A stretch of DNA of 64,000 nt from Corallium rubrum. Taxonomy: Eukaryota; Cnidaria; Anthozoa; Scleralcyonacea; Coralliidae. Of this stretch, positions 4,901-7,900 are shown one piece after another. The position numbers and the translations under genes are program-made. The stretch lies in NCBI GenBank assembly GCA_964035015.1, contig OZ036004.1, positions 11,465,576 to 11,529,575 on the forward strand. Reading direction: 5' to 3'. Position 1 is the stretch's first letter. Every line of letters begins with the position of its first letter. The notes below the pieces were generated by a model, which ran no database searches, was not told the DNA's origin, and saw only the letters and a program-made list of their open reading frames with translations.

Positions 4901-7900
4901 ATACAATACGTTCAATGACCGTGAAATTAGACAAATTGAACAAAAACATAGAACAATGACTTTTGCTGAGTTTCCAAACCATCCCCCTCCACTAACTATG
5001 AATGAACCAATTCCCCAATAGCGGCGCCATCTTGAATTCGCAATGCATTGTAGTCCATCCGGGGTAACAAGCTCAATTAAAAGGTGATTGCGTAGTGTTG
5101 GGACACAATGAGGCAATTTCTTGTTTATAAACACTTTCGTGGCGACAATGTCGAAATATGAGCGTTGTGATATTGGTAAAAGCAACAATTCTCTGACGTA
5201 TAAGGATAGATTCATGAAATAGTACAGCGTTTATATTTAGACATTGTTGCTACGAAAGTATTTATAAAGATAAATTAACCGCATTGTGTCTTCACACTAA
5301 GCAATCACCTGTTTAATTGAACTTGTTACACTGGATGAACTAACAATGCATTGCGAATTCAAGATGGCGCCGCTATTGATGAACAGGTCCATTGCAAACT
5401 TTAATAGCTTTTGTACTTTAAGGTGGCTCCATACAGTTTCTTAAAAAATGGAAAATACAAGTTTGAGAGTCCAAAACACGTGATTAAACAATTCGGAAAG
5501 AGAATAAAACTAAATGTTATGCAAAGTTAAACAGTCGGACAATAAAAAACTGTTACCAAATAAATAGCAACAGTTGTTACTATGGCAACAATGACATTTC
5601 AAAATGGCTGCCAATTACCCTTCAAACTAATTTAATTCGAGAAAAACTTTGGTGACCCCCAATTTTTTTTTCATTAAAACTTTCCTGGAAGTATGAGTAA
5701 TCAATAGGCCGATTTTAAAAAAGTTCTGTAGAACGAAATTTTTTAAAAATTAACAAGCATGATTTTCCCGGAGAAAAAAATTATTCCTTCTACAGAATTT
5801 TTTTAAAATCGGCCTATTGATTACTCATACTACAAGTAAAGTTTTAATGAAAAAAAAATTGGGGGTCACCAAAGTTTTTTTCGAATTAAATTAGTTTGAA
5901 GGGTAACTGGCAGCCATTTTGAAACGTCATTGTTGCCATAGCAACAACTGTTGCTATTTATTTGGTAACAGTTTTTGATTGTCACAATGTTTATTTATGC
6001 ATAACATTTAGTTTTATTCTTTTGTGGAATTGTTTATGTACGTTTTTTGGACTCTCAAACTTGTATTTTAAATTTTCAAGAAACTGTGTGGAGCCACCTT
6101 AAAAAAAAATTATGATTTATTTTAGCTTCACACTCGTGAAATATGGATGTAACAAGCTAGAGTTGTGAAGGTATTTATTTAGTTGGGTTATTTCCTAGTA
6201 TTTTTTTATATTTTTTGGAGCATGTTTTTTCAGGGGTTTTCCTTCCGTCTTTTTCTTACCATCCATCTTTTTCATTCATTCATTTGTTCATTCATTTATT
6301 TAATTAATCATTTATCCTTTTATTCACTCATTTATTCCGTTCTTTTCTTTCCTCCTTCCTTCCCTTCCTTCCTTCCTTCCCTTCCTTCCTTCCTTCCTTC
6401 CTTCCTTCCTTCCTTCCTTCCTTCCTTCCTTCCTTCCTTCCTTCCTTCCTTCCTTCCTTCTTTCCTTCCTTTCCTCCTTCCTTCCAACTCCCTCCCTCCC
6501 TCCCTCCTTCCCTCCCTCCCTTCCTTCCTTCCTTCCTTCCTTCCTTCCTTCCTTCCTTCCTTCCTTCCTTCCTTCCTTCCTTCCTTCCTTCCTTCCTTCC
6601 TTCCTTCCTTCCTTCCTTCCTTCCTTCCTTCCTTCTATTTTTCCTTCTATTTTTCCTTCTTTTATATACTTTTATTCCTTCCTTTGAACTAACCTTTTAA
6701 ATTTTATCTTGCATTTTATTTTCCTTTTGTTTCTATTTATTTCTCTACTTTTGCTTATCAAGAGTGGCGAGAAAGCTTACAAAATTGTCAAAGGAAGAAA
6801 AACTAGAGTGAGTTTTACAAAGTATTTTCAAGAAAATATGACTTATCTGAAAACATGAAAATTTTAAAATTTAAACCGCACTGTTTTATTGTTCTACTGT
6901 CTCGTTTTTTAATTGTATTTTTAAGCGAAAAGTAATGGAAACTCTTGGTGAAATTACCGCAGATTTGTTTGGAGAATGGCAAACTGAGGACTACGTTCCT
7001 CCACCAGTAATCGATGTGAGTTGTCTTTGCGGTTGTAAAATTAAAACTTTTTTTTGTGACTTCTGATTGGGTAATTTGCACCACGTGATAAACTGTTATG
7101 CCATGGCAACGCTCAACCATGCATTAATACCCGTGTTTAATTTCGTTAAAGCACGATGCCCATTTTTTGAAATTCTGAAGCCGTATCGAGTAATACAAAG
7201 AAATTGAACAGCGATGTAATCACTTTTTACTGCTTATTTTTCTACTAACAGGGCAAGGTCCCAAGAAATGAGTATGGAAATGTTGAGTTGTTTAAACCAA
7301 GTATGCTGCCGCTTGGCTCATGTCATATTCAAAGTGAGTCTTTTATCTATTTTTATGTTAGGTTTTTGTTGTCGGCGTTTTGTTTGTACAGTGGACTCTG
7401 TTTAGTATTAAACACTAGAAGTTTTTATCAAAAGTGAAGTGCTGCGAGTTGCTACCATTTACTATTTTGTAGTAAAATACTTGTTATCGTCCGAAGCATT
7501 TTCAATTAAAGAGCTTAAGCATGCGACGTTTTCCTCAACATGGACGTCACGCGTATAAAATCGAGCCATTAAAGAGTGATGGCGTCAGCACACTTGCTTG
7601 AAGTGAGGAACTATGCAGTTTTAGGTTGTTGATTTGCAGCAATAACGGCTGTTGCCATCTTTAATGGCTCAATTTTATACGCGTGACGTGAGTGTTGACA
7701 ATAACGTCGCATGCTTAAAATGTTAAGTGAAATCATCTGGCACAATGGTGTGGAATGTCATATAAACATTAATGAACAAAGACTCATACAAATACACTGT
7801 CTGCCCCTCGAAATGTCGCTAAGCCTTTTGTGGCCTTGATATTTACTTCCAGCAACAAATAGAGTTGTGTTTGATATAATAGTATTGTAGAAAAATACAC

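Follow-up and report, generated by a model that had tools for sequence, protein, structure and literature searches.

Has a core DNA-repair gene been lost in Corallium rubrum, or does the stop codon in one of its XPC exons have another explanation? The question is raised by the window, i.e. the whole stretch of 64,000 nucleotides that was analysed (C22:11465576-11529575). A first-pass annotation, made from the letters alone, noted in it a nonsense codon within a frame-neutral 45-bp XPC exon and offered five options: a loss-of-function allele, regulated exon skipping, RNA editing, a decaying gene copy or an assembly error. From the sequence comparisons given below, the window very probably holds an unprocessed, 5′-truncated segmental duplicate of the host XPC gene, which has become a pseudogene or was born as one. 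This duplicate is called copy B; the longer copy on the same contig is called copy A. The features of the window are the following (exons e1 to e11 are those of copy B, compared with copy A).

1..15782, + strand: window part of block B, paralogous to block A (blastn and flank comparison).
1908..1965, + strand: e1, start of BHD1; identical to copy A.
2173..2207, + strand: e2; one synonymous difference from copy A.
3604..3680, + strand: e3, BHD1; identical to copy A.
5417..6103, + strand: palindromic (foldback) repeat; ends 22 bp before e4; also found in copy A.
6126..6170, + strand: e4, start of BHD2; carries the nonsense codon; the copy A version is LHTRETWMKQARVVK.
6150..6152, + strand: TAA stop; AAA in copy A, Lys692 in human XPC.
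6763..6807, + strand: e5, BHD2; identical to copy A.
6926..7015, + strand: e6; one synonymous difference from copy A.
7252..7333, + strand: e7, BHD3; one synonymous difference from copy A.
8195..8288, + strand: e8, BHD3; identical to copy A.
8547..11428, + strand: about 2.9 kb in the e8-e9 intron of copy B, absent at that place in copy A; parts of it match C22:11383348-11385511, for the most part inverted.
11433..11526, + strand: e9; one synonymous difference from copy A.
11655..11744, + strand: e10; one synonymous difference from copy A; donor GTAAAT versus GTGAGT in copy A.
12146..12242, + strand: e11, C-terminal part, SWP as in human XPC; differs from copy A by two replacements and, in frame, by 9 nt in length.

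By the reading of the sequence, e4 is a 45-bp XPC exon of phase 0-0 (window 6126-6170). It has the acceptor TTTTAG and the donor GTATTT, and its joins to the neighbouring exons are in frame. It aligns with human XPC residues 684-698; its Trp corresponds to human W690 and its stop to the position of K692. The nonsense codon described by the first-pass annotation is borne out, as is the frame-neutral character of the exon. When the window exons are joined, with X for the stop, the product matches human XPC residues 630-866 (E ~1e-95) and yeast Rad4 (best E 2.9e-24). On these sequence grounds e4 with its stop is a real exon and no chance reading frame, because the joined exons match human XPC over 630-866 and because the copy A exon has AAA. 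An alternative exon with the Lys version was looked for in intron 3681-6762 and none was found: a six-frame scan of the window for W...[AGS]R[VILM][VIL] gave e4 only, and would miss any alternative exon that lacks this signature.

The window copy is like the XPC/Rad4 damage sensor of nucleotide excision repair (human XPC, yeast Rad4) in BHD1 to BHD3 and in the C-terminal region. It differs in that a stop stands at the K692 position and the frame is not continuous, and in that exons for human residues ~208-261 were not found for it. Pfam scores with X at the stop are 69.8 bits for BHD_1, 39.3 for BHD_2 and 98.2 for BHD_3 (cut-offs 27, 33.5 and 27, respectively); BHD_2 scores 47 in copy A. Only BHD1 is encoded 5′ of the stop in the readable sequence of copy B. 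The Pfam BHD_2 profile gave no match when run against the whole genome, a result that carries no information, as the 14 control genomes likewise gave none.

The search for a second XPC copy that the first-pass annotation had proposed was run on the 474-Mb assembly (312 contigs), and it decided between the five options in favour of a decaying gene copy. An XPC protein search of the genome gave 16 matches, all on C22, eight in the window copy and eight in copy A. A DNA search of the whole genome with e4 and its flanks found two places, copy B and copy A. Both lie on the same strand, copy A ~114 kb upstream of copy B. The e4 of copy A has AAA in place of TAA, which supports the single A-to-T change proposed earlier (its direction inferred by taking copy A and human XPC as the reference). 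Copy A is open in all 12 exons compared and has the same exon-intron structure as copy B in the shared part; the introns are retained in B. A reassigned TAA was considered and is unneeded, because copy A has AAA at that codon.

Block A spans C22:11342903-11363646 (20.7 kb) and block B spans C22:11456853-11481357 (24.5 kb; right end at window position 15782). The left end of block A falls inside the copy A gene, between the exons at 11340202 and 11343150. The copy A exons for human XPC residues ~208-261 (E 2.5e-8 for the stretch) are located at 11338142-11340318, outside block A. A nucleotide search for these exons near B, in C22:11343000-11569575, gave only matches of 22-28 bases (E 0.09 or worse). 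Since they lie outside block A and were found once, copy B begins in mid-gene. A genome search with the N-terminal exons of copy A gave ten matches: eight in A, one in B and one on C1 (E 5.2). The sole match in B is the exon for human 301-320. Of the stretches that bear on the N-terminal transglutaminase-like region of XPC/Rad4, copy B thus shows this exon, whereas those for human ~208-261 were seen in copy A. Stops are flagged in three of the eight A rows, at or past splice sites that were placed by eye. By comparison with A, the B exons between human 320 and ~625 fall in a stretch reading N just upstream of the window. A copy A exon further upstream, like human 119-137, is weak (tblastn E 3.1; not significant in a second comparison). 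Short-exon tblastn gave no convincing candidate for the last XPC exon in A or B. The earlier statement that all other visible XPC exons are intact is correct for copy B as far as its 11 other readable exons go; it does not extend to the 5′ part of the gene, of which this copy appears to lack the exons for human ~208-261, a point that could not be seen by the first-pass annotation.

Copy B is most likely a 5′-truncated duplicate pseudogene because the block starts inside the A gene, because the 5′ exons are found only in A and because of the nonsense codon. A lesion-free paralogous parent (copy A), retained introns, and a nonsense codon together with missing 5′ exons are the pseudogene features found for B. 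It resembles unprocessed (duplicated) pseudogenes that arise from partial segmental duplication in its kept introns, colinear block, truncated 5′ end and disabling mutation. It differs from them in being unusually clean: across its 12 readable exons, a single point mutation is disabling.

The following course of events is proposed. A segment of ~21 kb, running from an intron of the longer copy A to past e11, would have been copied, without inversion, to a place ~93 kb further along. The arrangement of A and B is observed as present, whereas the copying event and its direction are what we infer. The new copy would lack the 5′ exons and, presumably, a promoter. Relaxed of function, it would then have gained the AAA-to-TAA change and a Thr-to-Ile change in e4, copy A and human XPC serving as the reference for the direction of both. 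If B were transcribed, its protein would be cut short after the first eight residues of e4 and would lack nearly all of BHD2 as well as BHD3 and the C-terminal tail. A stop upstream of exon junctions marks an mRNA for nonsense-mediated decay; with at least seven junctions downstream of the stop, the B mRNA is a predicted target. Copy A, in which every exon read is open, would then provide the repair function.

Seen from the window alone, copy B resembled a striking nonsense allele. Once copy A, open in all the parts that were read, is taken into account, its neighbour B looks like an ordinary partial duplicate of pseudogene type. Corallium rubrum need no longer appear to have lost a core DNA-repair gene, a stop-free XPC copy being close by. 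In annotation, copy B should be labelled as a partial duplicate. Short reads or probes for XPC exons may mix the two copies, which differ by ~4% in the segments compared. In the literature on XPC with pseudogenes or gene duplication, no XPC duplicate was found among the titles and the starts of the abstracts; one may have been published elsewhere.

The divergence of the copies was measured in exons and in aligned DNA. The exon comparison includes 12 exons: the window exons e1 to e11, and one more that lies upstream of the window. The AG/GT sites are kept in 12/12 exons of both copies. Stops are found in 1/12 exons of B and 0/12 of A; the other 11 readable B exons are open. Over 285 codons, counted after the 9-nt length difference of e11 had been set aside, A and B differ by seven synonymous and six non-synonymous changes, the nonsense change included (pN/pS 0.25, Fisher P 0.013). 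In nine of the 12 exons the encoded amino acids are all unchanged. In ten chosen alignable segments, 346 substitutions were counted in 8926 aligned bases (3.9%, range 1.5 to 7.1%), and large insertions also separate the copies. The non-coding part of the e3-e7 stretch has 89 differences in 3437 bases (2.6%). Under a model in which only B is neutral, the six non-synonymous changes seen compare with 8.6 expected at the local intron rate (Poisson P 0.25) or 12.9 at the whole-block rate (Poisson P 0.03). Long simple-repeat tracts, tetranucleotide and related, are found in the XPC introns of the window (1-1320, 1340-1520, 6360-6640, 12280-13120); the introns of copy A hold similar ones, e.g. (CTGT)n.

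These counts weigh against the pseudogene reading to some extent. With 11/12 exons open, 12/12 splice sites kept and a lean towards synonymous changes, copy B would not have been decaying freely through all its divergence, unless the differences were allelic ones older than the duplication or sequence was exchanged between the copies. Taken over both neutral rates, the exons are compatible with a copy B that was once under selection as a gene and with one that never was. Allelic differences that predate the duplication, or A-B exchange, would fit the exon pattern too.

Block B might instead be the other haplotype of a single XPC gene, misplaced in the contig, the stop then being a heterozygous loss-of-function allele; this is unlikely. 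Very heterozygous animals can show ~3.9% divergence with many indels between haplotypes, a level that the two blocks match, and their synonymous-leaning exon differences resemble allelic variation. A stacked haplotype should, however, repeat the flanks too, and for this reason the dissimilarity of the flanks counts against it: the outer junctions of B are free of N and run into sequence with no found similarity to the flanks of A. The flanks were compared at E 1e-5 and 40 bases, with low complexity masked. Beyond the block ends, no similarity was found between the left flanks (7.3 kb for A, 17 kb for B), and none between the right flanks (A to 11385000, B to 11498400). The single occurrence of the copy A 5′ exons in the genome also speaks against a misplaced haplotype. 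A weaker point is that, among the 40 of 5024 candidates that were scored, the right flank of B (1001 bp) is matched over its full length by itself alone; the first half of this flank is a dispersed repeat.

The dispersed repeat (~480 bp, window 15900-16380) lies near the right end of block B. It is found at 39 other places on many contigs, 89-93% identical, among the 40 of 5024 candidates that were scored. The spacer between the copies contains a tandem array with a 112-bp step (C22:11424920-11426362; copies ~99.7% identical).

The 5′-truncated duplicate remains the preferred reading, and a variant of it concerns the past of copy B. Until recently B may have been a second functional gene under selection, perhaps a C-terminal-only XPC with a new promoter in the spacer, whose function was lost only when the nonsense codon arose in e4; this change may still segregate in the population. 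The observation behind this reading is the lack of amino-acid change in nine of the 12 readable B exons; it is nonetheless given a small probability, as a quite unlikely history.

That the T at 6150 is an error of base calling or consensus, and the true base an A, is very unlikely. Such an error would fit the fact that the exon is open but for one base, but e4 has a second replacement that the first-pass annotation does not mention, ACA (Thr, as in human) in copy A versus ATA (Ile) in copy B, so that 2/45 bases of the exon differ (at 6142 and 6150). Copy B is also without the 5′ part whatever the base at this position.

Use of copy B with e4 skipped, giving a regulated or constitutive short XPC with the frame kept and 15 residues lost, is judged highly improbable. 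The phase 0-0 of the exon would permit it, and the preceding intron contains a palindrome (arms of 300 nt) that comes within 22 bp of the acceptor with its outermost arm. In copy A, however, the exon is open although palindrome and splice sites are the same. The earlier expectation that skipping leaves a continuous protein stands as far as the frame is concerned; the BHD_2 score, by contrast, falls from 39.3 to 20.2 bits when e4 is left out, below the Pfam cut-off of 33.5. The equivalent of W690 is lost as well. In human XPC, W690S is reported to abolish DNA binding, the mutant still being recruited to damage in a DDB2-dependent manner (PMC4330392); the same mutant is reported to fail to complement XP-C cells and is described as disrupting folding and stability (PMC5673894). 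A short e4-skipped isoform would be unlikely to repair DNA, because it has the W690 equivalent deleted and W690S is disabling, as reported, in human XPC. Regulated skipping of e4 has no support.

The foldback repeat (5417-6103) has 300-nt arms that are 90% complementary, and a related one, 88% identical, is found at C22:11553435-11554116. It is probably older than the duplication, since it is also present in copy A and at C22:11553435. The palindrome was considered as the cause of the e4 defect and rejected, because copy A has it too, before an open exon. Foldbacks of this family, with long and nearly complementary inverted arms, are seen on C22 both in an XPC intron, in copy A as in copy B, and outside the gene copies.

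Recoding, i.e. restoration of the protein by RNA editing or stop read-through, has a vanishingly small probability: A-to-I editing of TAA can yield at most TGG (Trp), never Lys, copy A encodes Lys directly, and no support for either process at the B stop was found, the editing option of the first-pass annotation included. Skipping, editing and recoding are not needed to explain the e4 stop.

Elsewhere in the window, an ORF at 32165-32874 resembles the first ORF of a non-LTR retrotransposon and is cut off by a 200-base N gap; it contains a Cys/His stretch that we take to be PHD-finger-like, and the motif GDIQINPGP, which we take to be 2A-like. A satellite array with a 172-bp unit starts just after this gap and occupies window 33078-64000, continuing to ~C22:11542150; the window includes 180 copies (96% matches), with a strong GC skew of ~0.3. 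Another ORF, of ~276 codons from its ATG (25586-26416), starts MATPATPSQTPD and has no Pfam match at E 0.001. It is followed by a 19-bp tandem repeat at 26512-27772.
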